Shown here: positions 5,204 through 20,744 of the stretch, piece after piece
Layout of the letters: every line of letters begins with the position of its first letter
Numbering within the stretch: position 1 is the stretch's first letter
Assembly: GCF_018263905.1 (NCBI RefSeq)
Contig: NZ_JAAFZU010000028.1
Location: 47,731-111,730, forward strand
Reading direction: 5' to 3'
Length of the DNA stretch: 64,000 nucleotides
From: Loktanella sp. SALINAS62
GTDB lineage: Bacteria > Pseudomonadota > Alphaproteobacteria > Rhodobacterales > Rhodobacteraceae
Notes under the pieces: generated by a model
Databases searched by the model: none
What the model was told of the DNA's origin: nothing
Seen by the model: the letters and a program-made list of their open reading frames with translations, nothing else
Position numbers and translations under genes: made by a program

Positions 5204-5205
5204 CG

Positions 5206-6321
5206 TTGAAAGGGCTGGCGACCGGATCACTCAACTATTTTCCGGCACTGGACGGTCTTCGCGCGCTCGCCGTCCTTGCTGTGTTTGCCGAGCATTTTAC
5301 CTACAACGAGTTCGTGCGAGGCTGGGGCCCCGGCACTATCGGCGTCAGAACGTTCTTTGTGCTGTCAGGCTTTCTCATCACATCTATCTTATTGAAAGAG
5401 ATCGGCACGGCACCCGTCAGCAAGCTCGCGACACGGTTCTACGGTCGACGACTGTTGCGACTGGCGCCGGCCTTTTACGTGGCGATCGCACTGGCGGCAC
5501 TGTTGGGCATTGCAGAGATGCGGTCCGCCTGGTGGATCCACGGCCTCTACCTGTCAAACTTTCAGATCCTGCTTCAGGAACGGTGGACGGGGGCTGGCCA
5601 TTTCTGGACGTTGGCGGTTGAAGAACAGTTCTACCTCCTTTGGTTTCCACTTGTCGTACTTGCGCCCCGCCGCTGGCTGCTGCCGCTCGTTTTGACCTGT
5701 CTCGCGCTCGCACCCGCCTTCCGCAGCCTGATCCCTATGGGTGCCAGTCCGTTTATTAACGTCATGCTGCCCGGCCAAGTCGACAGCCTCGCCGCCGGTG
5801 CGCTGGTCGCGCTCGCCCGCTTCCGGTCCGACCTGCGGTGGCTCGACCAAATATTCTTGTCCCGGGCTTGGCTTATTGTGCTGTGGACGATGACGCTGGC
5901 AGTCAGCGCACCGCTTTACCACAAGCCAGCCTTTCTAAGCTGGGTATTGCTACCCTCGTTAATGAGTTTGGCGGCCGCCTGCCTCGTGCGTACCTGCGTC
6001 GAAGGACAGGCAACGGCGTTGCGACTTCTGTGTCGGCCAGCCATGATCTGGATGGGCAAGCGGTCCTATGGGCTCTACATCTTTCACTATCTCGTTCCGC
6101 CGTTTCTCTTCTCCTATATACCCGCAATCGAACTGCTGGGTGATGGCCCCCTGAAGTTTGTTCGGTTGGTAATCTGGGTCGTCCTGACCCTCGTGCTTGC
6201 CGAACTCTCGTGGCGATATGTTGAGCGTCCGTTCCTGCGGCTCAAGGACCGGTTCCGGCCAGAGCAAAGTGGCACGGCAGGCCGATCAATGTCGCACGAC
6301 GGGTTGCCGCATAAACTCTAA
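5206..6321 (+). CDS. Acyltransferase family 3 (OafA/YrhL-like) membrane protein
   Basis: An integral membrane acyltransferase of about 371 residues. It starts with the family motif YFPALDGLRALAVLAV, followed by AEHF (likely catalytic His about residue 30), then RTFFVLSGFLIT and FWTLAVEEQFYLLWF, and about ten hydrophobic segments. Such proteins O-acetylate or otherwise acylate surface sugars. The open frame extends upstream to 5110, but the TTG at 5206 is preferred: it follows GAGGAG at the right distance and sits just after the stop of the glycosyltransferase at 5203. It is the last gene of the glycan operon. Confidence 0.85.
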   Translation: MKGLATGSLNYFPALDGLRALAVLAVFAEHFTYNEFVRGWGPGTIGVRTFFVLSGFLITSILLKEIGTAPVSKLATRFYGRRLLRLAPAFYVAIALAALLGIAEMRSAWWIHGLYLSNFQILLQERWTGAGHFWTLAVEEQFYLLWFPLVVLAPRRWLLPLVLTCLALAPAFRSLIPMGASPFINVMLPGQVDSLAAGALVALARFRSDLRWLDQIFLSRAWLIVLWTMTLAVSAPLYHKPAFLSWVLLPSLMSLAAACLVRTCVEGQATALRLLCRPAMIWMGKRSYGLYIFHYLVPPFLFSYIPAIELLGDGPLKFVRLVIWVVLTLVLAELSWRYVERPFLRLKDRFRPEQSGTAGRSMSHDGLPHKL

Positions 6322-6374
6322 GTTTGCACCTGTCACGGTTTGATGCCGCTCCTTTGCTAGCATTTACTGCAATA

Positions 6375-6642
6375 ATGGAGACTGACTATGGAACGAAACG
6401 AACGGACGAATTTCGGCAAGATGCGGTGCGGTTTGTGCTGACGAGCGGGCTGACAAGAAGTCAGGTGGCGTCAGACTTGGCCGTTGGCCTTTCGGCGCTG
6501 AACAAATGGGGTGACGGCGCATCGTGGTACGGATGTGGTGTCGGACTAGGATCTGAATATTGCGTGCAAGAATGAACGGCTTCGCCGCGAGAGCCGCATC
6601 CTCAAGGAGGAGAGGGACAACCTACTTCGCCGCCCAAAAGCC
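6375..6642 (+). pseudogene. IS3-family transposase OrfA remnant
   Basis: The frame from ATG 6375 gives an OrfA-type N-terminus (TDEFRQDAVRFVLTSGLT, then QVASDLAVG..LNKW), the helix-turn-helix of IS3-family OrfA proteins. It then loses similarity at a lesion near 6510. A second piece in another frame (NERLRRESRILKEERDNL, about 6566-6625) matches the leucine-zipper tail of the same protein. No OrfB follows, so it is a dead fragment. The rest of the 6322-6694 gap holds nothing else I recognise. Confidence 0.7.
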
Positions 6643-6694
6643 ATGAGTAGCTCAGAATTTGAAGGGTGGTGCGTTTAGCTACCTACCGCCGTTG

Positions 6695-7483
6695 CTACTG
6701 GCATAGCCGGAACTCTCCGCGCCGTTTACGAACGTCGAGATGCAGGTGATCGGCATGTGACTCGTCCGAGCCGGGTCCAAGGACCGTCGTGAAATTGAGG
6801 CATGCGGTAGATCGCACCGCATCCTGAAACGCCTCGGCCATGGTCCCGTCGCGTTCGCGCGGCTGGACCCGGATCGGATCGCCGTCGGCAAAGCGGAACG
6901 CCATGACATCGACCGCGTTGCCAAACGAATGCTCTGAAAGCTTGCCGTCTGGGCTGTTATTGCGGCGGCGGCAGACATAGGTGCTTCCCTGTTCGATCGC
7001 GTCCAGCGAACCGCGATCGTCAAGATGCTTCGCCGCCGGCATCACAAACTGCTCAACCCATCCTGCGAAGGCTAGCGCCGTCTCGCAGCGCATGACACCT
7101 GCGGGCTCCAAAGCCACGGCGCCCGGCACACTGGTCAGTCGCACCGGATTATGAACGCCGCATGCGGTGTCATCCGCATCAGCGATTGGGTCGATGATCT
7201 CGTAGTTCGCGCCAAGTGCGTCAAGTTCCGCCAAGCAAGCATCCAGTTCGGCATCCCCGACGGCCAGACGGTCCGGTATCGGTGGTCCAGAATCGACCAC
7301 GTCCACATCGTTTTCGGCCGCGACATAGCCCGGCGCGCCCGCCTCTGGCATCTCGCCAAGCCCTTCGGGGCGGATCTTGGGGGTAGGTGTCGTCTCGGGC
7401 GGTGGCCCCGCTTGGGTCGGCGCGGATGTCTCTTGCGCCACGGCTGGCGCGGCCATCAACGCCAGCACGGCCAGCCAACGCAT
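6695..7483 (-). CDS. Extensin-like C-terminal domain protein, secreted
   Basis: A 262-residue exported protein. The N-terminus (MRWLAVLALMAAPAVAQ) is a signal peptide, followed by a proline/threonine-rich linker and an extensin-like domain. Key features are the Cys in CGVHNPVRL, the Cys of MRCETALAFAGW, SEHSFGNAVDV and the histidine cluster SHADHLHLDV, a pattern related to D-Ala-D-Ala peptidase/M15-like folds. Start at 7483 is chosen over an upstream frame because GGAGG lies just upstream and the signal peptide begins there. The start shares one base with the stop of the L,D-transpeptidase gene, so both are co-translated. This context points to a role in peptidoglycan. The biochemical activity of the family is poorly known. 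Confidence 0.85.
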   Translation of the reverse strand: MRWLAVLALMAAPAVAQETSAPTQAGPPPETTPTPKIRPEGLGEMPEAGAPGYVAAENDVDVVDSGPPIPDRLAVGDAELDACLAELDALGANYEIIDPIADADDTACGVHNPVRLTSVPGAVALEPAGVMRCETALAFAGWVEQFVMPAAKHLDDRGSLDAIEQGSTYVCRRRNNSPDGKLSEHSFGNAVDVMAFRFADGDPIRVQPRERDGTMAEAFQDAVRSTACLNFTTVLGPGSDESHADHLHLDVRKRRGEFRLCQ

Positions 7484-8448
7484 TAATTGTCCTCCGAGAC
7501 GAAACTTACCGCGGTTCCCTGATCGACCATACCGGCCAGTTCGCGCGCGTCCCAGTTGGTCAGACGCACGCAACCATGGCTCTGGTCCTGAAACAGCTCA
7601 TCGGGGTCTGAAGTCCCGTGGATGCCATAGGTCGGTTTGCTCAGATCGATCCAGACGATTCCCACGGGACCGTTTGCGCCGGGCGGAAGCACAAGTATCT
7701 CATCGTTGTCGCCCTGCCGAAAGTTCTCGTCGGGTCTGTAGGTGTAGGTCGGTTCAATAGCGATGGCGGTGATCTCGTGCGTGCCCGAGGGGGAGGGAAG
7801 CTCGGCAGACCCTACCGTAGCCGGGTAGTTGGCCACCATGATGTCGTCTTTTGAAAACGCCGCGACGCGGCCCACGTCCTTGCGAACCTCGACCCGAGTG
7901 ACCGTTGCGTCAATGGGATCGCCGGTTGCCGCTACGAAGATCGTCTCGCCGGCCTGAAACGCAGCATCGGGATTCAGGTTGCGCAGAAACGCCTGATCCA
8001 TGTGGAAATCTTCGGCCAGTCGTTCGGCCACGCTGGTATAGCCCAGCCAATCCATCTTGGCGAGCTTGGCGTAGTCGTCTGGCAGTCCGTCCGTCAGACC
8101 GACGGCGTCCTCCTCGGTGATCCGGTATGATCGCAGGATTTGGCCACGGTCGTCACCGTCCAGCGCTTTCCAGACGTCGCTGTCCATGACGCCGTCGGCC
8201 TCCAACCCCTCCCGCGCTTCGAATGCCCGGATGGCACTGCGTGACATGGGTCCACGAAAACCATCGATCACACCAGGGCTGATCGCGGCTCGGTCCAGCA
8301 GAACCTGCACGACGACCGTGATCGCGGATTGACCCTCCGGCAGTGGCCCTCCGGCATAGTTTGTCTTGGATATGGCCTCGGGGCTCAGCTGCGCGATAGC
8401 TTGGGCGGGTGCCAGTAAGATGCCGACTATAAAACAGAAATTTTTCAT
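7483..8448 (-). CDS. L,D-transpeptidase (YkuD) with peptidoglycan-binding domain
   Basis: An exported protein of about 321 residues with signal peptide MKNFCFIVGILLAPAQAIAQ. A peptidoglycan-binding-like region follows (FRGPMSRSAIRAFE), then a central region possibly LysM-like (LAEDFHMDQAFLRNLNPD), and a YkuD catalytic domain with HGTSD and SHGCVRLTNWDA, whose Cys (about 293) is the nucleophile. These enzymes form 3-3 cross-links in peptidoglycan or attach proteins to it. The ATG at 8448 begins the signal peptide. An earlier ATG at 8466 is in frame but gives an unlikely leader. It is coupled to the extensin-like gene. Confidence 0.88.
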   Translation of the reverse strand: MKNFCFIVGILLAPAQAIAQLSPEAISKTNYAGGPLPEGQSAITVVVQVLLDRAAISPGVIDGFRGPMSRSAIRAFEAREGLEADGVMDSDVWKALDGDDRGQILRSYRITEEDAVGLTDGLPDDYAKLAKMDWLGYTSVAERLAEDFHMDQAFLRNLNPDAAFQAGETIFVAATGDPIDATVTRVEVRKDVGRVAAFSKDDIMVANYPATVGSAELPSPSGTHEITAIAIEPTYTYRPDENFRQGDNDEILVLPPGANGPVGIVWIDLSKPTYGIHGTSDPDELFQDQSHGCVRLTNWDARELAGMVDQGTAVSFVSEDN

Positions 8449-8735
8449 TGGTGAATAACGCGCCATTGTAGGGATTGGTTCCTACGAGAAGCGAGCGAGA
8501 CCATCAAAAGCCGTACTGTCAAAGAGACAAATCCACCCCCGATTGGCGCACGCCCCGTGCAATATCGATAAACGTTGACGGGACCGCAATGCACTGGATG
8601 GGCAAAGGCGAGGATAATTTTCCTGCTCCAGTTATACCAATCGAAACATTCATGCAGGCACTTTGATTTGGATCAAAGAGTTCAGCAGTCGGGAGCTGAA
8701 AATATTCCATGAGCTTTTAAAATAAGGAGGATCGT

Positions 8736-8960
8736 ATGCCTGCAACATTTCTCGTTGTTTCATCCGAAGATTTGGACGGACGGTTTATGGAAACGAAACA
8801 TATCCAAGCGGCAACTCAAAAGGAGGCTATTGCAGAGTCTGGATTTACGGATGCAGTTGCAATTCCCGCGAGTATATCCGTAACCACAAACGCCGGTCTT
8901 CGTCGAAAGGGTCAACGCAAACAGCACAGCGGCAAAACTGAACCCGGGCCTACAACTTAA
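8736..8960 (+). CDS. Small hypothetical protein
   Basis: A 74-residue open frame with a very strong ribosome site (AAGGAGG at about 8725) eight bases before ATG. The N-terminus (MPATFLVVSSEDLDG) reads like a folded beta-strand start, and the C-terminus is rich in Lys, Arg, Gln and Gly. No family recognised. Its neighbours are a cell-wall operon on the other strand and another small gene with a strong ribosome site, so it may belong to a set of small accessory genes. Confidence 0.5.
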   Translation: MPATFLVVSSEDLDGRFMETKHIQAATQKEAIAESGFTDAVAIPASISVTTNAGLRRKGQRKQHSGKTEPGPTT

Positions 8961-9123
8961 AATGATTGCACTTGAAGGCCTTCGTTAAACCGAAAGCAGA
9001 AGGGCAGGTCTCGCTGGCGTTCGCGTAAGAGATCGGAGAGTTCTCGCCGAGAATACGCTGCAAGAAATTGTGATGCAACGAAGTGTTCGGCCATTGGTAT
9101 TATTTTGATAGGAGGAAACCACC

Positions 9124-9315
9124 ATGAAGCTACACCTGTTAGACCAAACCCGCACTTATAATTCGAATAACCGGCTGAAGCAGTTCCTGCGCATGCTGCG
9201 CGGTCAGTTCCGTCATCCGTCGACGGAGGCTCTTATGCGGCGCGAACGCAATCGCGACCCGCAGGTGGCGCGTGTCGCGAGCTGGCAAAAGGCCCGTCGT
9301 GGGTCAGAGAATTAG
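9124..9315 (+). CDS. Small basic hypothetical protein
   Basis: A 63-residue frame preceded by AGGAGG eight bases before ATG. The product is strongly basic (repeated Arg/Lys, for example RRERNRD and KARRGSEN) with no membrane segment. The composition would suit a nucleic-acid-binding or DUF1127-like small protein, but I recognise no family signature. The support is the ribosome site and a clean frame. Confidence 0.45.
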   Translation: MKLHLLDQTRTYNSNNRLKQFLRMLRGQFRHPSTEALMRRERNRDPQVARVASWQKARRGSEN

Positions 9316-9456
9316 GCGCAAACCAGCGTTTCAACGGCCTCAATCCCGGCAGTTCGTTTGGAAAGTAGCTGCGCCTTGGCGCGCGTGCTTGTCACATAGC
9401 TGACTCGTGTCAATGCGAGCTGAGGGCGCTACCGCATTGGATCAGAGGTGTCATAG

Positions 9457-9594
9457 TCCATTGTCAGTCTGACCGATCGCGCCGTCGGCTATGGTTTACG
9501 ACCGCTACTGCAGCGCCTGAACCTGCGGATCGATCAGGATGACCGTATCGCCGTACTGGGGCGCACTGGCGCCGCATCTGTTGATCCGCGATAA
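9457..9594 (+). pseudogene. ABC-F type ATPase fragment
   Basis: One frame encodes VSLTDRAVGYG, then RLNLRIDQDDRIAVLGRTGA. This is the start of the second ATPase domain of ABC-F proteins up to the Walker A glycine loop. The lysine and serine of GKST are absent and a stop follows within six codons. Nothing upstream or downstream continues the gene. It is a decayed fragment inside the otherwise gene-free stretch 9316-9811, where I see nothing else. Confidence 0.55.
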
Positions 9595-9811
9595 GATCAA
9601 CCATCTGGACATCAAAGCAAGACAGTTTCAGCACCGATCCGATCCGCCAAACGGTGGGACTGATCGTCCAAGGCTGTATTTATCGGGCAGCGTCTGCGAC
9701 AAGCGTCGTTATCAGCTTTGTCCGCACACTGAACAGCGCAACATAAATATTTTAGCGGGGCTGGTCACTGTTGTTTTCCACGGCAGCTATAGGCGGAAAA
9801 GGAACCAGACT

Positions 9812-10579
9812 GTGGCTAAAACTCCAACGTCCCGAATAGACAAGCTCCTGTCTTCCATGGGCTATGGTTCACGCAACGAAATCGCGCAAATGGCCAGGCG
9901 GGGCGGTATTCGTCTGGACGCTGCGAACATCCGGGACGTCACCAAACGCATTCCTGTGACTTCGGATTTGCCGGTCCGCATGAAAATCCACGGCGAGGCG
10001 CTTGACCCCCTTCCGGGCATGGTCATCCTGATGAACAAACCTTTGGACATGACGTGTTCGCACAAGGAAGACGGGCCATTGGTCTATGACGTCCTGCCGG
10101 AGCGCTGGAAAAGACGTGATCCGGCGGTTTCGTCCATCGGCCGGTTGGATAAGCTGACGACGGGTCTTTTGTTACTGACAGATGATGGCGGCCTGCTGCA
10201 CCGTATTATCAGCCCAAAGCGCCACGTCGCAAAAATCTATCGTGTCAAGCTGGCCCGCCCGCTTAATGGCAGCGAAGGCGGCCTGTTCTCCTCGGGTCAG
10301 TTGATGCTGAAAGGCGAGGACAAGCCGCTGCTTCCTGCGGAACTGGAGGTGGTCTCGGAAACCGAAGCCCTGCTGAGGATCACCGAGGGCCGATACCATC
10401 AGGTGCGTCGCATGTTTGCTGCCACCGGCAACCACATCGAAAAACTGCATCGCGAGAGTATGGGCGGTCTGTCGCTCCCTGATGGCATCGCACCCGGTCA
10501 GTGGAAGCTGCTGAGTGAGGAAGAGATCGCCTTGATCTTCCACGCGCGTTGCGACCGGAGCGGAGAGTCGGCTGAGTGA
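9812..10579 (+). CDS. 16S rRNA pseudouridine synthase, RsuA/RluB/E/F family
   Basis: About 255 residues. An S4-like RNA-binding domain at the N-terminus (SRIDKLLSSMGYGSRNEIAQM) is followed by the pseudouridine synthase domain with the catalytic motif SSIGRLDKLTTGLLLLTDDG, where the Asp of GRLD is the nucleophile, and the late motif EGRYHQVRRMFAATGN. It isomerises a uridine in ribosomal RNA, most likely 16S U516 if RsuA-like. The open frame reaches back to 9539, but GTG at 9812 is preferred: AAAAGGAA lies upstream and the S4 domain starts there. The exact rRNA site cannot be read from sequence. Confidence 0.85.
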   Translation: MAKTPTSRIDKLLSSMGYGSRNEIAQMARRGGIRLDAANIRDVTKRIPVTSDLPVRMKIHGEALDPLPGMVILMNKPLDMTCSHKEDGPLVYDVLPERWKRRDPAVSSIGRLDKLTTGLLLLTDDGGLLHRIISPKRHVAKIYRVKLARPLNGSEGGLFSSGQLMLKGEDKPLLPAELEVVSETEALLRITEGRYHQVRRMFAATGNHIEKLHRESMGGLSLPDGIAPGQWKLLSEEEIALIFHARCDRSGESAE

Positions 10580-10589
10580 ATGTCCGCTT

Positions 10590-10865
10590 GGATGTCGAAC
10601 TTGAGATGTTTGCTGGCTGCGATTTCAAACGCCTTGGTCTTCTTGCGAGATTAGTGAATGTTCTTCGCTGGATCGCCACCCTTGGCGGCGAGGATGCGAT
10701 TCATGCGCAGTCTCGAACCATCGCAGACCCGTGTCCGAAGACTTGGCGCTTGCCACGCACCATGATGCGCAACACCCATCGGCCAGCACCGGAATTTGAC
10801 GCACCGTCGTATTGGCCCCCACCGTCTGTATGTGTGTCCGGCGGCGCAGACCGAACAAAGACGGC
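10590..10865 (-). pseudogene. Tyrosine-recombinase (DUF4102-type) fragment
   Basis: In the minus frames there is TDGGG, then SGAGRWVLRIMVRGKRQVFGHGSAMV. This is the pattern of the arm-binding N-terminal domain of P4-like integrases (normally DGGGLYL..SGAK.W.FR). A second piece in another frame (RILAAKGGDPAKN) matches the next conserved part of the same domain. Frames are broken and no catalytic domain is present. It is the second integrase relic of the window, distinct from the one at 33.4-36.6 kb. Confidence 0.5.
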
Positions 10866-11458
10866 TTTCGGTTGCTTTTCGAAATGCGGCATATGCCACT
10901 TTCCGGGCGTTAATCGCTGCTGGACATTCGTTTTTACATCCACATTCGCGCCCACATTTTCTGCACGATAGCGGGAAGGTGCAAAAAGCGTAACGCCCTG
11001 AAAAGCCGAAACCTTTCAGTATCCACTGGGTATGGGAATGAACACTTTTGGCGTGTGGCGGAGCGACAGTCCGCCAAATTTTTGCGACAAAATACTGTTA
11101 TTAAAGCATTATTTATCAAGCACATGGAAATATACCTCATAAAATACCGCATGAGGAAGTAATTTTGTTTGCGTTTAAACGGTCCGGCAAATTTGGAAAG
11201 CGTGCTAAGATGTATCCAACCTTGAAGGCAGGATGCAACATTTCGCGCGACAGCGTAGCCAACATGACGGCGTTTTCAGTTCCGCCTCGGTATCGGTTTG
11301 AACTTGCCCCCTAGGATCGAAATTCTGGGCGCGGAAGATCGACTTGGCTCTCCAGTCTGCCGGTCTCGACCAGTTCGTTCTGTGCAGGCTCCACGCGAAT
11401 GCAACCTGCTTGCAGGGTTGATCCGGCCCCAGCGCAGGCTTTGCTTCTTGGCGCATGC
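10866..11458. other. Gene-free stretch, AT-rich in its centre
   Basis: No coding region that I can support lies between the integrase fragment and the LysR gene. The centre (about 11040-11200) is richer in A/T than its neighbours and contains one hairpin followed by a T-run. Small open frames exist on both strands but lack ribosome sites or recognisable products. Confidence 0.5.
11056..11083 (+). terminator. Possible rho-independent terminator
   Basis: A 7-bp perfect stem (TGGCGGA / TCCGCCA) with a 7-base loop is followed by AATTTTT. It reads as a terminator on the plus strand. The gene it would serve is not visible, since the pseudouridine synthase ends 480 bases upstream. Confidence 0.4.
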
Positions 11459-12409
11459 TTACGCGCTCCAGATCACCGCGTTCTCGTGGCGCAGGATGAT
11501 CGCCCGCAGATCGTCGAACGCCACGCTGATGAATCGCACCAGCTTGTCGCACGTGGGCAGGGACGGCGCGTTCTTCAGGCGTAAGATACCTAGCGACCGT
11601 TCCGGTTGTGGTATCTTCATCGGAACGGTCTTGAACTTGCCTGTTTGGCGGAAGGCGAACAGCACGCTTTGTGGCAGCACCGTCAGGGCATCGGTTTCTT
11701 CAAGATAGTTCAGCACGCTCATCAACGAGCCGCCGGAATAGCGCACGTTCACCTCGCTCATGCCGATGGACAACAGGATTGAGTGGATGTCCGCCAAAAG
11801 CGGCGACCCCGGCAGCGGCGCGATCCACGGGTAGCGGAGTAGATCGGTGGAGGTGACGGATTTCTTGCGGAAAATCGGATGGCGGACCCGCGCGGCGACA
11901 ACATTGCGCCCCGGCAGGATCTCGGTGAAGTCCAGTTCCGACCCCGGTTCGACCATGCCAAGCGGACAGATCGCCATGTCAAGCTGGCCCGACCTAAGAC
12001 CCGCTTGGATCTCGGGCAGGTTGCCGTAAGACTGGTCGACGCGGATATCGGGCCACTTCACTTGAAACTGGCCGATCATGCGGGAAATGACGGCGTCCAT
12101 GAAGAACGGCACGCCAGCGATCCGCACGGTGCCCGCGGACCCACTGCGAAACCCGTCCACGGTTTCGGACGCCTTGCGTCCGGCCTCAAGGATTACCTTG
12201 CCATGCGCAGCAAGCTGCCGCCCGATGATCGTGGGCACCAGCGGACGCCTGCCGGGCATGAACAGCGGTTCGCCCAACCGCTTTTGAAGCGCTGACAGCG
12301 TGCGGGAAACGGCGGGCTGGCTGAGACCCAGAAGGTTCGCGCCTTCGGTCACGCCGCCTGCCTCGATCACGGCGGCAAGCTGCGCCAGATGCTTCTCGTC
12401 AATCTTCAT
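11459..12409 (-). CDS. LysR-family transcriptional regulator of the aromatic cluster
   Basis: A 316-residue LysR regulator. The N-terminal winged helix-turn-helix is clear (GGVTEGANLLGLSQPAVSR, then LQKRLGEPLFMPGRR), followed by an effector-binding domain of two alpha/beta lobes (VRIAGVPFFMDAVISRM onward). It is divergent from the catabolic operon with 78 bases between starts, and a perfect 17-bp palindrome lies in that gap. LysR proteins in this arrangement usually activate the divergent operon when a pathway substrate or intermediate binds, and repress themselves. The inducer is unknown. Confidence 0.9.
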   Translation of the reverse strand: MKIDEKHLAQLAAVIEAGGVTEGANLLGLSQPAVSRTLSALQKRLGEPLFMPGRRPLVPTIIGRQLAAHGKVILEAGRKASETVDGFRSGSAGTVRIAGVPFFMDAVISRMIGQFQVKWPDIRVDQSYGNLPEIQAGLRSGQLDMAICPLGMVEPGSELDFTEILPGRNVVAARVRHPIFRKKSVTSTDLLRYPWIAPLPGSPLLADIHSILLSIGMSEVNVRYSGGSLMSVLNYLEETDALTVLPQSVLFAFRQTGKFKTVPMKIPQPERSLGILRLKNAPSLPTCDKLVRFISVAFDDLRAIILRHENAVIWSA

Positions 12410-12436
12410 ATCAATTCGTTATATCGCAGGTCTGAA

Positions 12437-12453
12437 ATTCGATACTATCGAAT
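12437..12453. promoter_or_regulatory. Palindromic LysR operator (LTTR box)
   Basis: ATTCGATA-C-TATCGAAT is a perfect 17-bp inverted repeat containing the T-N11-A pattern of LysR-type binding sites. It lies 27 bases upstream of the LysR start and 34 bases upstream of the first catabolic gene. A possible half site (ATTCG) is at about 12415. It is the best candidate for the recognition site of the divergent LysR protein. Confidence 0.6.
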
Positions 12454-12487
12454 GTCGCGCCGTTTACGGTGGAAGTCAAACGGGGGG

Positions 12488-13333
12488 ATGACGACCATGG
12501 ATGGGGGCAAGGCGCCAAATCGTCGGGGGAACGGGTTTGCGCAACATGCCGCAACCCGCGACACGCGCCTTGCCGCCATCATTGCCGATCTTGTGGGGGC
12601 GGTCGAGGCTGTGGTCGTCAAGCACCGGGTCACGCGCGACGAATTAAGCGTGGCCATGTGCTTTGCGACGGATGTCGGGCTGTCGACGGATGACCGGCGA
12701 AACGAATGGGCTTTGCTGTCGGATGCGACCGGCCTGACCGACCTGATCGAAAAGATCGGGGTGGATCGGCCGATGGGCGCGACCGCGCAGACCATGCTCG
12801 GGCCATTTTACAGGGACGGCGCGCCGCGCAAGGCATCGGGCGACACCATCTCGATCGACGGGATCGGCGTGCCGCTGAGCTTCGTCGCCCATGTCACCGA
12901 CCTTGATGGCGACCCGGTGCCGGGGGCCACGGTGGACGTGTGGCAGGCAAACGGGGACGGGACGTTCGAAAACCAGAACCCCGATAGCCAGCCGGACTAC
13001 AACCTGCGCGGGCGGTTCGTTACCGACGCGCAGGGTGTTGTGACATTCCGGACGGTGCGGCCCGCTGGTTATAGCTTGCCCGCCGATGGACCCGTGGCCG
13101 CGTTGCTTCGCGCGCTTGACCTGTCGCTGGTCAGGCCAGCGCACATACAGTTCCGCGTCGCTGCGACCGGGTTCCAGACACTTGTTACGCATGTGTTCGA
13201 CAAGTCCGACCCGCAAATCGGCGCCGACCCTCTTTGGTGCGCGGCGCCGGACCTGCTGGCCGATTTCGGGGACAAGACGACCGGATTTACCTTCAAGCTT
13301 GCCCGGGCCCGCCCGGATCATCACCGTCGATAA
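12488..13333 (+). CDS. Intradiol ring-cleavage dioxygenase homologue lacking two iron ligands
   Basis: About 281 residues with the intradiol dioxygenase architecture: an N-terminal helical domain (about 15-110), then the beta-sandwich catalytic domain starting at TMLGPFYRDGAP. Enzymes of this family (catechol or hydroxyquinol 1,2-dioxygenase) hold Fe(III) with two Tyr and two His. Here the first Tyr position reads GTFEN (Phe about residue 160) and the second His of the PAHxH motif reads PAHIQF (Gln about 221). Only Tyr195 (GYSLP) and His219 remain. The product may be inactive, an iron-free partner subunit, or altered in activity. ATG 12488 is preferred over an open frame reaching 12389. An in-frame ATG at 12497 is an alternative. 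It is the first gene of the catabolic operon. Confidence 0.8.
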   Translation: MTTMDGGKAPNRRGNGFAQHAATRDTRLAAIIADLVGAVEAVVVKHRVTRDELSVAMCFATDVGLSTDDRRNEWALLSDATGLTDLIEKIGVDRPMGATAQTMLGPFYRDGAPRKASGDTISIDGIGVPLSFVAHVTDLDGDPVPGATVDVWQANGDGTFENQNPDSQPDYNLRGRFVTDAQGVVTFRTVRPAGYSLPADGPVAALLRALDLSLVRPAHIQFRVAATGFQTLVTHVFDKSDPQIGADPLWCAAPDLLADFGDKTTGFTFKLARARPDHHRR

Positions 13334-13353
13334 ACTTTGGGGAGGAGAAAACC

Positions 13354-14310
13354 ATGGCTCAGATCAGCGGCTATCATCACATGACGCTCAGCACGCATGG
13401 CGTGCAGGAGGACTATGATTTCTATACCAAGACGCTTGGCCTTTACTCGGTCAAGCGCACGGTGCTGTTCGATGGAGTGTTGCCGGTCTACCACCTGTAC
13501 TACGGCGCGAAAAATGGCGACGCTTCGACCATCATCACGACCTTCCCGTTCAAGAAGCCCGGCATCTACGGGCGGCGCGGATCGAACCAGTCCAAGATCG
13601 TGATGCAGTCGATCCCAGTGGGCGCAGCAGATTATTGGGTCAACCGTCTGAACGGGATGGGCGTAGAGGCCACCAAGACCACGCGTTTCGGGGCGGATCG
13701 CGTGGTGTTCGAACATCCCTGCGGCATCCCGCACGAACTGGTCGAAAACCCAAGCGACAACCGCACACCGATTGCCAACGAGGTGCAGGGCGTCAGCGCG
13801 GAACATGGAATCAAGGGCATCTACGGCGGGGCCATTTCTGTGATGGACCGCAGTGCGATGGACGATTTTCTGACCATCGCGCTGCCGATGGAAAAGATCG
13901 CCGACAGCCATGAAGGTCTGGCCTTTGCCGTTCCCACGAACGATGGCGCGAAATCCATCGTGGAGGTTCTGCATGAACCCGATGTTCCGCAGGGCACCTG
14001 GACGCTGGCGGGTGGCACGGTGCATCACTTGGCGCTGAACACCGGGACCGAGGAAAACCAGATGGCGCTGCGGGCGCATATCGAAGGGTTGGGTTTCACC
14101 GACATCTCGGAACAGAAGGACCGGATGTATTTCAAATCCTGCTACGTCCGCAGCCCAGGCGGCGCGTTGTTCGAACTGGCCTGGACCGTGCCCGAGGGGT
14201 GGGCCAAGGACGAACCCGCCGACGCCATCGGCCAGACGCTGGTGTTCCCGCCATGGTTCGAGGATCGCCGCGCCGAGATGGAAGCGGGTCTTGAACCCGC
14301 GAGCTTCTGA
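13354..14310 (+). CDS. PcpA/LinE-type hydroquinone 1,2-dioxygenase (VOC family)
   Basis: A 318-residue protein with paired vicinal-oxygen-chelate domains. Candidate Fe(II) ligands are His9 (GYHHMTL), His225 (TVHHLAL) and Glu274 (ALFELAW). Their spacing, 216 and 49 residues, equals that reported for PcpA, the 2,6-dichlorohydroquinone dioxygenase (His11, His227, Glu276), as I recall it. Such enzymes open (chloro)hydroquinone rings. MhqA/MhqO proteins of the same family also act on quinone-derived compounds. The start follows GGGGAGGAG. It stands 20 bases after the intradiol homologue and upstream of a hydrolase and a maleylacetate reductase, the expected next steps. The ring substitution pattern it accepts is not known. 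Confidence 0.82.
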   Translation: MAQISGYHHMTLSTHGVQEDYDFYTKTLGLYSVKRTVLFDGVLPVYHLYYGAKNGDASTIITTFPFKKPGIYGRRGSNQSKIVMQSIPVGAADYWVNRLNGMGVEATKTTRFGADRVVFEHPCGIPHELVENPSDNRTPIANEVQGVSAEHGIKGIYGGAISVMDRSAMDDFLTIALPMEKIADSHEGLAFAVPTNDGAKSIVEVLHEPDVPQGTWTLAGGTVHHLALNTGTEENQMALRAHIEGLGFTDISEQKDRMYFKSCYVRSPGGALFELAWTVPEGWAKDEPADAIGQTLVFPPWFEDRRAEMEAGLEPASF

Positions 14311-14319
14311 GGCACAAGG

Positions 14320-14967
14320 ATGGGCAACCCGATCCATGTCGGCGCGACGTCCGATGATGCGAACGTGATTTGCATCGTCGTGCACGGACGCGGCCAGACG
14401 CAAGGCGACATGCTGGCGATGATCGTTGACCGGCTGGATCTGCCGGACGTCCGGTTCGCGCTTCCCAAATCCGTCTCCGAAGCCTGGTACGCGGCGCGCG
14501 CCATCGACCCGCTAGGCGACCGGACGCCGGCAGAGCTGGATCACGGGATTGCGCAGATCGCCGCCGTGATCGCGGCGGAGCGCGCCAATGCACCGGGCCG
14601 CCCAGTTTTGCTATGCGGCTTTTCACAGGGCGCGTGCATGGCGGTCGAACTGTTGATGCGGCGGCCCGATCTGGCCGATGCCGCCTGCCTGTTGACCGGC
14701 TGCCGTGTCGGAGTTGAGTCTGACGATCTGCCGTTCGCGCGGCTGGACGGCGTGCCGGTTTATGCAAGCTGCGGAGATGATGACCCGTGGATACCGGCGG
14801 GCGATCATCACAAAATGCTGGCGACGCTGACCCGCGCGGGCGCACGACTGCGCGCCGACATGTTTCCGGGTCGCCCACATGCGGTCAACGACACCGAGAT
14901 TGCCGTTCTGTCCGGGATGCTGATCGACCTGGCGTTGGGGCATGTGCCTATGGCGGGCGACACATGA
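14320..14967 (+). CDS. Alpha/beta hydrolase, phospholipase/carboxylesterase (MhqD-like)
   Basis: A 215-residue cytoplasmic alpha/beta hydrolase. The oxyanion region is IVVHGRGQ, the nucleophile elbow is GFSQGA (Ser about residue 106), the acid lies in CGDDDPWIP, and the catalytic His is in FPGRPHAV. This matches the carboxylesterase type 2 group that includes MhqD, usually found beside MhqO/MhqA ring-cleavage dioxygenases, as here. It sits 9 bases after the dioxygenase and overlaps the next gene by 4 bases. A role in hydrolysing a ring-cleavage product is inferred from context. Confidence 0.82.
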   Translation: MGNPIHVGATSDDANVICIVVHGRGQTQGDMLAMIVDRLDLPDVRFALPKSVSEAWYAARAIDPLGDRTPAELDHGIAQIAAVIAAERANAPGRPVLLCGFSQGACMAVELLMRRPDLADAACLLTGCRVGVESDDLPFARLDGVPVYASCGDDDPWIPAGDHHKMLATLTRAGARLRADMFPGRPHAVNDTEIAVLSGMLIDLALGHVPMAGDT

Positions 14968-16025
14968 CTGCGCCGTTCGTCTTTCCGGGGATCTCCACGC
15001 GGGTCGTGTTCGGCAGCGGCACACTGGATCTGGTCGCGGATGAACTGGCCGCACTTTGCCACCGCGCGGCACTGGTAGTGTCCACGCCTCAGCAGGCCGA
15101 TCAAGCGCGCGCAGTCGCGGACAGGCTTGGCACCGCCGCCGCCGGTCTGTTCACCAAAGCGGCGATGCACACCCCAATCGAGGTGACGGACCGCGCGGTC
15201 GACGCGTTTCTCCGAAGCGGCGCGGCCTGTGTCGTGGCTATCGGCGGCGGGTCCACCGTGGGGTTGGCCAAGGCCATTGCAACGCGCACCGGGGCGGATC
15301 AGATTGTGATCCCCACGACCTATGCCGGGTCCGAGATGACCGATATTCTGGGCGAAACGGCGCAGGGCGAAAAAACCACGCGCCGCGATGAATCGATCCG
15401 GCCCGAAGTGGTAATCTACGATGTGAATTTGACGCTTGGCCTGCCGGTGGCCATGACCGTCACATCTGCGCTGAATGCCATCGCGCATGGGGTAGAGGGG
15501 CTTTATGCCCGTGACGCGAACCCGATCACGGACATGATGGCGCTAGATGCGATGCGTGCGTTTCGGGACGGTCTGCCCAAGGTCGTTGCCGCGCCCGACG
15601 ATCACGACGCGCGCGCCAAGGTGCTTTACGGCGCATGGCTGTGTTCCACCGCGCTTGGTCATGTCTCGATGGCGCTGCACCACAAGCTGTGCCACGTGCT
15701 TGGCGGGTCTTTCGGCCTGCCGCACGCCGATACGCACGCGATCATGTTGCCGCATACGGCGGGGTTCAACGGGGTGGCGGTACCCGACAAGCTGGCCCCT
15801 GTGGCAGAGATTTTCGGCGGCAGCGTGGGCGGTGGGCTATGGGATTTTGCCAAGTCCAACGGCGCGCCCCTGCGGCTTGCCGATCTTGGCGTAACCGAAG
15901 CCGATCTGGACCGCGCCGCCGAGATCGCGACCCGCAATCCATACGACAACCCACGCCCCTTCGGGCGGGAGGAAATAAGGTCGATACTGGGCGCAGCCTG
16001 GCGGGGGGATCGGCCGGAAACCTGA
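14964..16025 (+). CDS. Maleylacetate reductase
   Basis: A 353-residue protein of the iron-type alcohol dehydrogenase superfamily. Typical points are VFGSGT near the N-terminus, the nucleotide loop AIGGGSTVGLAKAIA, PTTYAGSEMT, and HHKLCHVLGGSFGLPHADTHA. The combination is characteristic of maleylacetate reductase, which uses NAD(P)H to turn maleylacetate into 3-oxoadipate, the common exit of hydroxyquinol and chlorohydroquinone pathways. Start ATG 14964 overlaps the previous stop (ATGA). An earlier in-frame start inside the hydrolase gene is rejected. Its presence ties the cluster to hydroxyquinol/hydroquinone rather than simple catechol breakdown. Confidence 0.9.
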   Translation: MTAPFVFPGISTRVVFGSGTLDLVADELAALCHRAALVVSTPQQADQARAVADRLGTAAAGLFTKAAMHTPIEVTDRAVDAFLRSGAACVVAIGGGSTVGLAKAIATRTGADQIVIPTTYAGSEMTDILGETAQGEKTTRRDESIRPEVVIYDVNLTLGLPVAMTVTSALNAIAHGVEGLYARDANPITDMMALDAMRAFRDGLPKVVAAPDDHDARAKVLYGAWLCSTALGHVSMALHHKLCHVLGGSFGLPHADTHAIMLPHTAGFNGVAVPDKLAPVAEIFGGSVGGGLWDFAKSNGAPLRLADLGVTEADLDRAAEIATRNPYDNPRPFGREEIRSILGAAWRGDRPET

Positions 16026-16058: not shown

Positions 16059-17339
16059 ATGATTACGCGACGTAGACTACTCAAGACGGCAGCGGCAACC
16101 GGGCTGATCACCGGGGCGACGGGGCTGGCGATGCCAGCGATTGCGCAACGCCGCGCAGTGCGCATCGGCTATGTCAGCCCGCAGACTGGGCCACTGGCGG
16201 GCTTTGCGGAGGCCGACAGCTTTACCATCGCGATGTTCAACCGCGTGATGGCCGAGCAGGGCATCGCGGTCGAGGTCATCGTGAAGGACAGCCAGTCGAA
16301 CCCGAACCGGGCGGCGGCGGTCGCGCAGGAACTGATCATCGATGACGAGATCGATTTCATGCTGGTCGCCTCCACGCCGGAAACGACCAATCCCGTGGCG
16401 ACTGTCTGCGAAGGCGAAGAGATCCCCGTGATTTCGACCAAAGCACCGTGGCAGCCGTTCTTCATTGGGCAGCAGGGCAATCCGGGCGATCCGGAAAGCT
16501 GGCAGCCGTTCAACTTTGCCTACCACTATTTCTGGGGGCTAGAGGATGTGATCGGCGTCTTCACCAATATGTGGAACCAGTTGGACACCAACAAGCAGGT
16601 TGGCGGGCTGTTCCCGAACGACGCGGATGGTAACGCTTGGGGCGACCCCAATGTGGGCGTCGCACCGGGATTCTCCGAAGCGGGATACACGACGACCGAT
16701 CCGGGCCGGTTCCAGAACCTGACCGACGATTTCAGCGCTCAGATCAACGCGTTCAAGGCGGCCAATGCCGAGATCGTCACCGGCGTTGTGATCCCGCCCG
16801 ACTTCACCACCTTCCGTAACCAGGCGATCCAGCAGGGCTTCAGCCCCAAGGCGATCACGGTGGCCAAGGCGATCTTGTTTCCGCAGTCAGTCGAAACGCT
16901 TGGCGAGGCGGGCCACAATCTGTCGTCCGAGGTGTGGTGGTCTGCAAGCCACCCGTTCACCTCGTCCCTGACCGGCGAAAGCTGCGCCGATCTGGCGGCC
17001 AGTTTCACCGAGGCGACGGGGCGGCCTTGGACACAGCCCATCGGGTTCGTTCATTCGCTGTTCGAAATGGCGGCGGACGTCATCAAGCGGGCGGAAGACC
17101 CGACTGATCCCGAAGGCGTGGTCGAGACGATCCGTGCGACCGAACTGGACACGATGGTCGGCCGCATCGCCTGGGACGGTGCGGGCGTGCCGCCCTTCGC
17201 GGCGCAGAACGTTTGCAAGACGCCCCTCGTCGGTGGCCAGTGGCGGCGGCAGGAGGACGGATCGTTCGAGCTCGTGGTGGTCGACAACACCACCGCGCCG
17301 AACATCCCGACCGGCGGCACCATGGAAGCGCTGGCCTAG
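16059..17339 (+). CDS. Branched-chain-amino-acid-type ABC transporter substrate-binding protein (Tat signal)
   Basis: A 426-residue periplasmic binding protein of the Leu/Ile/Val (HAAT) class. The N-terminus (MITRRRLLKTAAATG..MPAIAQ) is a twin-arginine signal, so the protein is exported folded. The mature part begins VRIGYVSPQTGPLAGFAEA and shows SNPNRAAAVAQELI and VASTPETTNPVA, typical of type I periplasmic receptors. A strong GGGAGG ribosome site precedes it. It is followed by two ATPases and two permeases and enclosed by ring-cleavage genes, so the likely ligand is an aromatic compound or acid rather than an amino acid. That is inference. Confidence 0.88.
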   Translation: MITRRRLLKTAAATGLITGATGLAMPAIAQRRAVRIGYVSPQTGPLAGFAEADSFTIAMFNRVMAEQGIAVEVIVKDSQSNPNRAAAVAQELIIDDEIDFMLVASTPETTNPVATVCEGEEIPVISTKAPWQPFFIGQQGNPGDPESWQPFNFAYHYFWGLEDVIGVFTNMWNQLDTNKQVGGLFPNDADGNAWGDPNVGVAPGFSEAGYTTTDPGRFQNLTDDFSAQINAFKAANAEIVTGVVIPPDFTTFRNQAIQQGFSPKAITVAKAILFPQSVETLGEAGHNLSSEVWWSASHPFTSSLTGESCADLAASFTEATGRPWTQPIGFVHSLFEMAADVIKRAEDPTDPEGVVETIRATELDTMVGRIAWDGAGVPPFAAQNVCKTPLVGGQWRRQEDGSFELVVVDNTTAPNIPTGGTMEALA

Positions 17340-17397: not shown

Positions 17398-18117
17398 ATG
17401 TCCATTTTGAGCCTTCAAAACGTCTCCAAATCCTTCGGCGCGCTTACGGTGTCCGATGACGTCAGCTTTGACGTGCCCAAGGGCGAGGCGTTGGGAATCA
17501 TCGGGCCGAATGGAGCCGGGAAATCGACGCTGTTCAACTTGATCAACGGAAAATTCGCGCCCGATCGCGGACGGATCACCTTTGATGGGGTGGACGTGAC
17601 AAAGGTGCCACCGATGCAGCGCTGTCTGGCGGGCGTCGGGCGGTCGTTCCAGATCCCGCAGCCGTTCGGCAATCTGACGGTGTTCGAGAATCTGCTGGTG
17701 TCGGCCACCCACGGGCAAGGGCGGTCGGAACGCGAGGTTACGGCAGAGTGCGCCGCCATTCTTGAACAGACCGAATTGATGGCGGTCGCCAACACCACCG
17801 CTGGAACGTTAAGCCTGCTGCAACGCAAGCGGCTGGAACTGGCGCGCGCCATGGCGACGGGGCCGAAGCTGCTGTTACTTGATGAAATCGCAGGCGGCCT
17901 GACAGAGGGTGAATGCCGGTCGCTGATCGAGACGATCAAGTCGATCCACGCGGGCGGCATCACGATCATCTGGATCGAACATGTGCTGCACGCGCTCAAC
18001 TCTGTGGTGGAACGGCTTTTGGTGCTGGATTTTGGCAAGGTCATCGGCCTTGGCGCGCCCGCAGAGATCATGGAGAGCCGCGAGGTCAGGGAAATCTATC
18101 TGGGGATCGATATATGA
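17398..18117 (+). CDS. ABC transporter ATP-binding protein, LivG type
   Basis: A 239-residue ATPase. Walker A is GPNGAGKST, the Q-loop region is GRSFQIPQPF, and Walker B is LLLLDEIAGGL. The signature position reads LSLLQRKRLELARAM, slightly degenerate as in LivG proteins. It pairs with the LivF-type ATPase that follows with an ATGA overlap. The start ATG 17398 has AGGA upstream. The frame is open further back into the binding-protein gene, but that part is shadow. Confidence 0.9.
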   Translation: MSILSLQNVSKSFGALTVSDDVSFDVPKGEALGIIGPNGAGKSTLFNLINGKFAPDRGRITFDGVDVTKVPPMQRCLAGVGRSFQIPQPFGNLTVFENLLVSATHGQGRSEREVTAECAAILEQTELMAVANTTAGTLSLLQRKRLELARAMATGPKLLLLDEIAGGLTEGECRSLIETIKSIHAGGITIIWIEHVLHALNSVVERLLVLDFGKVIGLGAPAEIMESREVREIYLGIDI

Positions 18118-18821
18118 GCCTGCTTGCAACCCACGACTTGACCGCTGGTTACGGCGATTTCCAGGCGCTGTTCGGTGTCGACATCGCGCTGGACGAGGGC
18201 GAGACGATCGCAATCATCGGGGCGAACGGGGCAGGCAAGACCACCCTGATGCGGTCCATCGCAGGGGTTTTGCGGAACGCGCCCCAGATGGTGACGTTCG
18301 AGGGACGGCAGGTCGGCGCGCTGCCCGCGGACGAGATCGTAGGCCTAGGCATCGCGATGGTGCCCGAGGGGCGCAAACTGTTCCCGTCACTCAGCGTCGA
18401 AGAGAACCTTTTGATCGGGGCGCATGGGCGCAGCGGCAATGGTTACTGGTCCTTGCAGCGCATCTATGACCTGTTTCCGATCCTCAAGGAAAAGCGCAGG
18501 GTGCCCGGAACTTCGCTGTCTGGGGGGCAGCAACAGATGGTCGCCATCGGGCGCGCGTTGATAAGTAACCCCCGCGTGCTTCTATGCGACGAGATCAGCC
18601 TTGGCCTTGCGCCGGTCGTGATCCGCGACATCTACGCCGCCTTGCCGCAGATCCAGGAGGCGGGCGCTGCGGTGATCGTGGTTGAACAAGACATCGGTCA
18701 GGCGATGAAGGTCGCGGACCGCGTGCATTGCATGATGGAGGGGCGCGTGACGCTGAGCGGCGCGCCATCCGACCTGAGCCGCGATGCCATCCACAATGCC
18801 TATTTCGGAGCGGCGGCATGA
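18114..18821 (+). CDS. ABC transporter ATP-binding protein, LivF type
   Basis: A 235-residue ATPase. Walker A is GANGAGKTT, the signature is LSGGQQQMVAIGRAL, and Walker B is VLLCDEISLGLAP. The family feature VPEGRKLFPSLSVEENL is present. It overlaps both neighbours by four bases (ATGA), so the ATPases and the first permease are translated as a unit. It energises the import of the ligand captured by the binding protein at 16059. Confidence 0.9.
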   Translation: MSLLATHDLTAGYGDFQALFGVDIALDEGETIAIIGANGAGKTTLMRSIAGVLRNAPQMVTFEGRQVGALPADEIVGLGIAMVPEGRKLFPSLSVEENLLIGAHGRSGNGYWSLQRIYDLFPILKEKRRVPGTSLSGGQQQMVAIGRALISNPRVLLCDEISLGLAPVVIRDIYAALPQIQEAGAAVIVVEQDIGQAMKVADRVHCMMEGRVTLSGAPSDLSRDAIHNAYFGAAA

Positions 18822-19681
18822 TCTGGATCGACACAATTGCGCAGGGCATTCTTCTGGGCGGGCTCTACGCCCTGTTCGCCGCAGGATTGTCGCTGGTGTT
18901 CGGGATCATGCGGCTGGTGAACCTTGCGCATGGCGACCTGATCGTATTGGGCGCCTACCTGATTTTGCTCGTCGTCTCGATTCTCGGGATCAACCCGTTT
19001 CTTGCCGCCGCCATCGCGATGCCTGTTATGTTCGGCTTCGGATGGGTCTTGCAGCGCTTGGTCCTGAACCGGGTGCTGGGCGAGGATATCTTGCCGCCGC
19101 TTCTGGTAACCTTTGGGCTGTCCATCGTGCTACAAAACGCGCTTCTGGAGGGGTTTACGGCAGACAGCCAGCGGGTGCGCGCGGGCCCGCTTGAGACCGC
19201 ATCGGTCGATCTAGGTGCGGTCACGCTTGGCGTGATGCCGATGCTGACCTTCGCATCGGCTATCGTGGTGATCGTCGCGCTGAACCAGATCTTCTATCGC
19301 ACCGCTTTGGGGCGGGCGTTCCGCGCCACATCTGACGATCCGGTGACCGCCAGCCTGATGGGGATCAAGCCGGCAAGCGTCTTCGCGGTGGCCACCGGCA
19401 TTGCCATGATCGTGGTGACGATTGCGGCGCTTTACCTTGGAATGCGCTCCAACTTCGACCCCACAATCGGCCCCGCCCGACTGATCTACGCGTTCGAGGC
19501 GGTGATCATCGGGGGGCTTGGGTCGCTGTGGGGGACGCTGGTCGGTGGCATCATCATCGGCGTAGCGCAGACGGTCGGGGCTGCGATCAACCCCGAATGG
19601 CAGATCCTGGCGGGACATGTCGCCTTTCTGGTGGTGCTGCTGATCAAGCCGCGCGGGCTGTTCCCGCGCGCTTACGACTAG
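18818..19681 (+). CDS. ABC transporter permease, LivH type
   Basis: A 287-residue integral membrane protein with about eight hydrophobic segments. It begins IDTIAQGILLGGLYALFAAGLSLV and has the Liv-permease features GIMRLVNLAHGD near residue 30 and EAVIIGGLGSLWGTLVGG near the end. It forms half of the inner-membrane channel with the LivM-type permease downstream. The ATG at 18818 overlaps the previous stop. Confidence 0.9.
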   Translation: MIWIDTIAQGILLGGLYALFAAGLSLVFGIMRLVNLAHGDLIVLGAYLILLVVSILGINPFLAAAIAMPVMFGFGWVLQRLVLNRVLGEDILPPLLVTFGLSIVLQNALLEGFTADSQRVRAGPLETASVDLGAVTLGVMPMLTFASAIVVIVALNQIFYRTALGRAFRATSDDPVTASLMGIKPASVFAVATGIAMIVVTIAALYLGMRSNFDPTIGPARLIYAFEAVIIGGLGSLWGTLVGGIIIGVAQTVGAAINPEWQILAGHVAFLVVLLIKPRGLFPRAYD

Positions 19682-19691
19682 AGGGCTGAGC

Positions 19692-20744
19692 ATGATCCAG
19701 ACGCATACCTACACGGTGCAGACCAGAACGCCCGCCTCGCAACTGGCGGCAATCGGTGCAGCGATTCTGTTGATTGTGGCGGTTGCGGTCCCGCTGTTCG
19801 CCAGCCGCAGCCTGATCCAGGATCTGTTCTTCATCTTGACGATGCTGACATTGGCCCAGTTCTGGAACCTGCTGGCAGGATACGGCGGCCTTGTCAGCGT
19901 CGGGCAACAGGCCTTCGTCGGGCTTGGTGCCTACGCGCTGTTCGGGGCCGCGATCCTGTGGGGCATGGACCCGGTCGCCGCGTTGATGTTGTCTGGCATC
20001 GCCGCCGCCGTGGTCGCGGTGCCGACGGCTTTTTTCGCCTTTCGCCTGCAAGGCGCGTATTTTGCCATCGGAACCTGGGTCGTGGCAGAGGTCGTGCGGC
20101 TGAGCGTTGCGCAATGGAAGGCCGTCGGCGGCGGAACAGGTACATCGCTGCCGCCCGATGCGCGCGACTTCTGGGGCGTCGCAACGGTAGAGTCGCTGTT
20201 CGACGTGCGCGCCAGTGCCGCGCGCGACATCGTCACCTACTGGCTGGCACTGGCGCTGGCGGTTGTCACCGTTGGCGGCATCTACTGGCTGCTGCGCACC
20301 AAGCGCGGGCTGGCGCTTGCGGCAGTACGTGACAACATCGAGGCTGCGAAATCCGTGGGCGTGGACGCAGGTCGCATGAAATGGCTTGTCTTCATCGTAT
20401 CGGCCTTCGGCACCGGGGTCGCGGGCGGGCTAATCTACTTGCAAAAAGCAAGGATCAGCCCCGATGCCGCGTTCAGCGTCACCGACTGGACCGCCTATGT
20501 CATCTTCATCGTCGTGATCGGCGGGATCGGCACCATCGAAGGCCCGATCATCGGCGTCCTGGTGTTTTTCGCGCTACAAAGCCTGCTGGCTGATTTCGGA
20601 AGCTGGTACTTGATGGTTCTTGGCGGGCTCGGCATTCTCGTGATGCTGTTCGCGCCGCGCGGGCTTTGGGGCCTGATTTCCAACAAGACCGGGTTGCAAT
20701 TGTTCCCGATCCGGCGCCGCCTTTACCCAACACCGAAGAAATAG
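19692..20744 (+). CDS. ABC transporter permease, LivM type
   Basis: A 350-residue membrane protein. After a short cytoplasmic N-terminus it has repeated hydrophobic segments and the LivM features GLVSVGQQAFVGLGAYAL and FRLQGAYFAIGTWVVAEV, then VIGGIGTIEGPIIG near the C-terminus. It completes the importer with the LivH-type permease and the two ATPases. It is followed after 10 bases by the flavin monooxygenase, so transport and catabolism are one transcription unit. Confidence 0.9.
   Translation: MIQTHTYTVQTRTPASQLAAIGAAILLIVAVAVPLFASRSLIQDLFFILTMLTLAQFWNLLAGYGGLVSVGQQAFVGLGAYALFGAAILWGMDPVAALMLSGIAAAVVAVPTAFFAFRLQGAYFAIGTWVVAEVVRLSVAQWKAVGGGTGTSLPPDARDFWGVATVESLFDVRASAARDIVTYWLALALAVVTVGGIYWLLRTKRGLALAAVRDNIEAAKSVGVDAGRMKWLVFIVSAFGTGVAGGLIYLQKARISPDAAFSVTDWTAYVIFIVVIGGIGTIEGPIIGVLVFFALQSLLADFGSWYLMVLGGLGILVMLFAPRGLWGLISNKTGLQLFPIRRRLYPTPKK

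Follow-up and report, generated by a model that had tools for sequence, protein, structure and literature searches.

Repeated loss of iron ligands in a paralogue of hydroxyquinol 1,2-dioxygenase that shares its operon

A conserved operon of Rhodobacterales and Rhizobiales begins with a paralogue of hydroxyquinol 1,2-dioxygenase, which we call IDO2, and ends with a gene for a hydroxyquinol 1,2-dioxygenase-like protein (HQD). One or two iron ligands of IDO2 have been lost about a dozen separate times. One of the copies concerned lies in the window, i.e., the whole stretch of 64,000 nucleotides from Loktanella sp. SALINAS62 that was analysed, and it lacks two of the four ligands. Our preferred reading, to which we give a probability of about 0.47, sees ligand-lost IDO2 as a pseudo-dioxygenase that is maintained although it can dispense with its iron site, that acts without turnover and that is most eroded in the genome of the window. 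The operon genes of the window and the four ligand codons of IDO2 are as follows.

11459-12409, minus strand: LysR-type regulator transcribed away from IDO2; of the operon genes, its tree is in closest agreement with the IDO2 tree
12488-13333, plus strand: IDO2, intradiol-dioxygenase-like protein with two of the four iron ligands missing, 281 aa; the start may be ATG 12497
12965-12967, plus strand: codon TTC for Phe160, at the first Tyr ligand position (codon check)
13070-13072, plus strand: codon TAT for Tyr195, the second Tyr ligand, retained (codon check)
13142-13144, plus strand: codon CAC for His219, the first His ligand, retained (codon check)
13148-13150, plus strand: codon CAG for Gln221, at the second His ligand position (codon check)
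13354-14310, plus strand: VOC ring-cleaving dioxygenase-like protein, kin of PcpA and MhqO
14320-14967, plus strand: carboxylesterase or dienelactone-hydrolase-like protein, scoring far below the MhqD cut-off
14964-16025, plus strand: iron-ADH family protein, probable maleylacetate reductase (MAR), with homologues in records so named
16059-17339, plus strand: ABC substrate-binding protein (LivK type)
17398-18117, plus strand: ABC ATPase (LivG type)
18114-18821, plus strand: ABC ATPase (LivF type)
18818-19681, plus strand: ABC permease (LivH type)
19692-20744, plus strand: ABC permease (LivM type)
20755-22539, plus strand: FAD-dependent aromatic hydroxylase whose nearest relative of solved structure is 2-hydroxybiphenyl 3-monooxygenase
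22536-23420, plus strand: HQD, hydroxyquinol 1,2-dioxygenase-like, with all four iron ligands

The usual gene order is a divergent LysR gene, IDO2, a MAR-like gene, a Liv-type transporter, a FAD hydroxylase resembling hydroxybiphenyl monooxygenase, and HQD. PcpA/MhqO-like VOC and esterase genes follow IDO2 in Rhodobacterales, Kaistia, Hoeflea and some Mesorhizobium loci; the VOC gene at 13354-14310, which agrees at 91% between the window and Marivivens, stands between IDO2 and MAR in only part of the family. By family resemblance, the operon genes fit a pathway via hydroxyquinol and maleylacetate. Two operons (L082 and L106) are reduced to LysR, IDO2 (with Phe), MAR and HQD, the transporter and hydroxylase genes being missing.

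An earlier note on this DNA had reported Phe for Tyr and Gln for His in IDO2 and a complete ligand set in the partner at 22536. The codons agree exactly with both statements, and those of HQD read Tyr163, Tyr198, His222 and His224. The window IDO2 thus lacks the Tyr, Tyr, His, His set by which hydroxyquinol/catechol 1,2-dioxygenases are recognized. It nonetheless scores above the Pfam cut-offs for both Dioxygenase_N (49.2 bits) and Dioxygenase_C (126.4 bits), as does HQD, and these two proteins are the only matches to PF00775 at E <= 0.001 in the 3.83 Mb assembly. The reading frame is open across its 281 codons, without the break expected of a pseudogene, and a Met corresponding to the alternative start at ATG 12497 is usable as a start in most of nine relatives compared. 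An AlphaFold2 model (mean pLDDT 90.1, from 54 aligned sequences out of 81) places hydroxyquinol dioxygenases first in a structure search (8r2x, E 8.1e-29, TM 0.79 and 0.80), so that the predicted fold is, with confidence, of the hydroxyquinol-dioxygenase type.

Relatives were collected by a family search and a search of genome contigs, the best 80 of 261 contig relatives being used. In the resulting tree IDO2 forms a separate clade, in which the first Tyr position is followed by Glu-Asn-Gln instead of the Asp-Val-Gln of HQD. Residues E161-N162, R109 and W74 of IDO2 are likewise mostly D-V, V and F in the HQD set. The Glu-Asn motif alone is insufficient to define the clade, because a few more distant proteins (L030, L161 and the second L177 gene) carry it too. 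The last of these is a second intradiol gene of the Glu-Asn type on a Sinorhizobium terangae plasmid (L177, 5992 onward), remote from the IDO2 clade.

Among the best 80 of 261 contig relatives, 63 IDO2 proteins carry Tyr-Tyr-His-His and 17 do not, a split that is not a fair sample since the loci were taken in order of similarity to the window protein; with nine family-search members added, 72 of 89 are complete, some genomes being counted twice. Plasmid loci were added as well (14 fetched of 389 matching records), and removal of duplicates, of L176 with its split gene and of two remote sequences (L161 and the second L177 gene) gave a set of 99 distinct sequences including the window. Of these, 77 are complete and 22 are short of one or two ligands. 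Most losses remove a single ligand; the window and L052, a Marivivens MAG, are down to two of four. HQD-type proteins are complete in 95 of 96 distinct cases (97 of 98 reading frames), the exception being cut off before the His positions, and so are 16 of 17 further intradiol frames with other motifs, the remaining one being the L176 fragment. In an even draw of 394 family genomes, 18 have IDO2 at E 1e-66 and three of them are ligand-lost, namely the window, G807 and G724, the last of which matches L052 at all 258 residues searched (100% identity); an earlier member with a complete IDO2, L012, is absent from these 18.

L052 is also the closest relative of the window protein among the matches listed (58% identity), and it carries the identical Phe and Gln replacements. 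Because a second genome has both, a sequencing error in the window gene is unlikely, and error or one-copy mutation was discarded as an explanation. The earlier note had expected that the copy would turn out to be simply mutated or misread if close relatives in the same operon had Tyr and His. Such relatives do exist, in the form of the 77 complete proteins, but the conclusion drawn from them is wrong, as the Phe/Gln state is common to the window and L052 and 20 other IDO2 proteins have lost at least one ligand.

A tree of 104 rows (99 IDO2 and 5 HQD), built with the ligand columns excluded, requires a minimum of 12 changes between complete and incomplete sets. A quick tree of 107 rows gives 12 as well, with 12 separate all-lost groups, and a model without return again yields 12; counting on a tree from five neighbour genes, for which 84 of 100 loci had enough genes, gives 11. 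By position, the 104-row tree places nine changes at the second His, two each at the first Tyr and the first His, and one at the second Tyr. Seven of the nine second-His losses lead to Gln, which only two of the nine single-base changes of a His codon produce (binomial probability of at least 7 of 9: 6e-4, ignoring mutation bias).

We propose that HQD, with its complete iron site, would be able to do the ring-cleavage chemistry, and that the iron site of IDO2 may be dispensable because of it and hence was lost about 12 times. The remainder of IDO2, including the clade-specific motif beside the iron site, is held by purifying selection in the five ligand-lost lineages that offer close pairs. 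Ligand-lost IDO2 would retain the fold and the aromatic pocket, may bind the aromatic substrate or product of the pathway without turnover, and could so help another component, the control side (LysR) or pathway flux being likelier than a role as a fixed subunit of HQD. The window protein stands at the most eroded end: it has lost two ligands, its rate residual is the highest, and the gene is missing from a sister genome. The absence of iron and of turnover and the non-catalytic role are what we infer for ligand-lost copies. The reduced operons L082 and L106 speak for a maintained pseudo-dioxygenase, as they still retain IDO2 after losing the transporter and hydroxylase. Against it, IDO2 is not essential to the pathway, as eight loci have the operon without it, and a ligand-lost copy (L123) occurs in a genome in which no HQD is found at E 1e-60, although the L123 operon is truncated.

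It is possible, if doubtful, that IDO2 is instead a redundant enzyme on its way out, a duplicate of HQD in which ligand loss comes first and deletion last, with the window at a late stage. Selection after ligand loss bears most directly on this (dN/dS by the NG86 counting method, pairs hand-picked from the tree). Close ligand-lost pairs give 0.087 (L065-L067, Hoeflea), 0.065 (L083-L168, R. ruizarguesonis group, from 2 nonsynonymous and 10 synonymous changes), 0.117 (L082-L106 and L124-L181 each) and 0.055 (L173-L174). These five values, 0.055-0.117, fall inside the range of ligand-keeping pairs (0.043-0.184, n = 19, some with a common member). Other ligand-lost pairs, deeper or with a member in common, give 0.057-0.215, one being not computable, and pairs of a ligand-lost with a complete copy outside the window's group give 0.048-0.116. 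Purifying selection thus acts on IDO2 in the five lineages that have lost ligands and offer close pairs. Ligands and gaps aside, ligand-keeping IDO2 has 53 columns with at least 98% fixation; 40 of them show no change in any of the 22 ligand-lost proteins, and across all 53 columns 1147 of 1166 cells (98%) are unchanged. Arg71, Asp79, Gly105, Pro106, Phe107, Arg109, Glu161, Asn162, Gln163, Arg174 and Arg216 occur in every one of the 22, and the unchanged columns include residues that separate IDO2 from HQD (Trp74, Arg109, Glu161, Asn162). Together, the dN/dS values of the five pairs and the 98% of cells unchanged argue that decay is not the general explanation. The ligand-lost group is also not faster than the ligand-keeping one (15 versus 49 terminal branches, p = 0.51), the bias of second-His replacements towards Gln does not suit decay, and none of the 22 distinct ligand-lost sequences has a broken frame. 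One further record, L176 from R. ruizarguesonis TP53, has IDO2 split over two frames (12344-13305); several of its other operon genes are also unannotated, which may reflect record quality.

The picture in the window's own lineage differs. There, IDO2 is clearly less constrained: dN/dS is 0.32 between the window and L052 (dS about 1.3; HQD of the same pair 0.105), 0.48 between the window and L053 (dS about 1.0) and 0.41 between L052 and L053. The two values for the window are raised yet below 1, and they average over a long stretch of evolution. Among 64 terminal branches, none exceeds those of the window and L052 in IDO2 rate residual, and these two proteins also depart most from columns at least 98% fixed (11 and 8 departures, ligands and one gap column counted, versus 0-3 in the 77 complete copies). 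These observations favour decay and weigh against maintenance. The weaker constraint on IDO2 generally also weighs against maintenance: where dN/dS is available for both proteins (30 pairs), IDO2 has the higher value in 25, whether or not the copies are complete, which makes it the less constrained paralogue. The earlier suggestion of a decaying copy is therefore contradicted in the five lineages with close pairs and supported, as relaxation, in that of the window, where the gene is moreover missing from a congener.

In this congener, G199, the LysR, VOC, esterase, transporter, hydroxylase and HQD genes are present, with identities of 57-89%. Its whole genome contains no IDO2 at E <= 0.001 and no maleylacetate reductase at E <= 1e-30; the operon without these two genes lies at 4500-14600 of locus L215 (G199:C41:6000-22500). 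The LysR gene of L215 (4524-5466) is in two frames (codons 1-185 and 186-314), by a true break or an assembly error. In the neighbour-gene tree the window and G199 are sisters and Marivivens lies outside (support 100 and 99). Most simply, therefore, the Phe/Gln state is older than the Marivivens split, and G199 lost IDO2 afterwards. Ten further HQD regions came from genomes in which no IDO2 had been seen; seven of them carry the operon but no IDO2, one is truncated by its contig and two have no operon. The operon thus occurs without IDO2 in eight loci in all, G199 included, which shows that IDO2 is dispensable to it. Two loci lacking IDO2, L219 and L220, are nested in a clade possessing it in the neighbour-gene tree, and with the G199 case they count in favour of decay.

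The earlier note had also raised the possibility of an iron-free partner in an IDO2-HQD heteromer, in the manner of the alpha subunit of protocatechuate 3,4-dioxygenase, which we consider unlikely. The Dioxygenase_N domain is the dimerisation route in the intradiol family, and both proteins have it. A second intradiol gene is present in 62 of the 80 IDO2 loci (in two as short pieces; best 80 of 261 relatives); of the 18 loci without one, 16 had their genomes searched, and an HQD-type gene is present in 14. An HQD in the locus accompanies 21 of 23 ligand-lost copies (L176 counted), and in L061 it lies further along the contig. On this count no tie between ligand loss and absence of HQD is seen. 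Against a heteromer, the rates of IDO2 and HQD show no covariation over 128 branches (rho -0.08; terminal branches only 0.17, p 0.18). As 13 of the 69 loci in this test have an HQD of less than 270 residues, fetched loci often ending inside the gene, it was repeated on the other 56 (102 branches), with rho -0.03. The HQD tree also agrees least of nine operon genes with that of IDO2 (0.29-0.30 of splits), although HQD agrees little with any. Among the 69 ten-gene loci, and for full-length HQD too, it has only about 0.3-0.4 of splits in common with any operon gene, owing either to swapping of this terminal gene or to little signal. Neither rates nor trees hence lend support to the heteromer. Hoeflea records pair a ligand-lost IDO2 with a distant HQD type (62-65%), in the usual operon IDO2 is the first and HQD the last gene, HQD occurs without IDO2 in eight operons, and most IDO2 proteins keep a full iron site, all of which counts against an iron-free subunit.

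Also unlikely is an altered but active metalloenzyme, in which the remaining Tyr and His, together with Gln, Asn or Phe, would hold iron or another metal for a modified reaction. Gln and Asn are able to bind metals, most cases involve a single ligand, and pocket residues are kept. Going by titles in the PDB, ligand mutants of protocatechuate 3,4-dioxygenase exist of which one set is said to maintain intradiol chemistry, so that single-ligand losses need not be inactive. Yet the lost position varies by lineage (Tyr160, Tyr195, His219, His221), unlike one new site, and the window and L052 are down to two of four ligands. A screen for substitutes (His, Cys, Asp, Glu, Tyr or Met at no more than 3% in ligand-keeping IDO2, present in all members of a ligand-lost lineage) found none common to more than two of the 12 lost lineages.

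A further, improbable proposal is a sensor or buffer working with LysR, in which ligand-lost IDO2 would bind a hydroxylated aromatic uncleaved in an intact pocket and tune induction of the operon, so that the losses would be some 12 parallel switches. IDO2 and LysR are the only clearly positive pair in rate covariation (0.32; 0.18-0.39 in subsets, with 0.39 over the 56 loci and 102 branches; terminal branches alone not significant), and their trees have 0.62 of splits in common; with LivG and LivF, the rates of IDO2 correlate negatively. In the LysR tree, five IDO2-less loci with a distant regulator group together, apart from the regulators of IDO2 loci (support 100), some of these rows being long branches flagged by the program, and the neighbour-gene tree splits the same five loci into two groups. 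Joint recombination of the adjacent genes explains the link as well as function does. Since neighbours can recombine as one block, the link is a lead, not proof.

The case also carries a warning for annotation. The Gln copy of Rhizobium strain TA1 (L168) is labelled 'dioxygenase', and elsewhere the name 6-chlorohydroxyquinol-1,2-dioxygenase is given to near-identical genes, their ligands not having been read individually. Among the titles and abstract openings listed in a literature search, nothing concerned ligand-lost bacterial intradiol paralogues or this operon, many subscription papers lying outside that scope. Going by partial texts, catalytically dead paralogues that activate an enzyme have been described for the trypanosome prozyme of AdoMet decarboxylase (PMC5201418) and for deoxyhypusine synthase (PMC3663545). 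The likeness to IDO2 lies in a conserved paralogue without catalytic residues beside an active one; these excerpts report functional complexes, whereas a complex with IDO2 would be putative, and IDO2 is missing from some operons.

The best matches of IDO2 in sequence and fold are the hydroxyquinol 1,2-dioxygenases TsdC of Rhodococcus jostii RHA1 (8r2x), PnpC (3n9t) and the N. simplex enzyme (1tmx). Both Pfam domains are in common with these enzymes; unlike them, the window IDO2 lacks two of the four iron ligands, and IDO2 forms a separate clade. The alpha subunit of protocatechuate 3,4-dioxygenase is an intradiol-fold relative without iron and without the N-terminal catechol-dioxygenase domain. 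Its model TIGR02423 gives the window IDO2 42.1 bits, below the cut-off of 126.25, and the ligand loss of IDO2 is scattered and recurrent where that of the alpha subunit is fixed. Most descriptions of pseudo-enzymes concern events that are old and happened once. In IDO2, some 12 losses at four metal-ligand positions coexist with operons that keep the ligands and operons that lack the gene, and this series makes the role of an enzyme fold after loss of its metal site testable by comparison.
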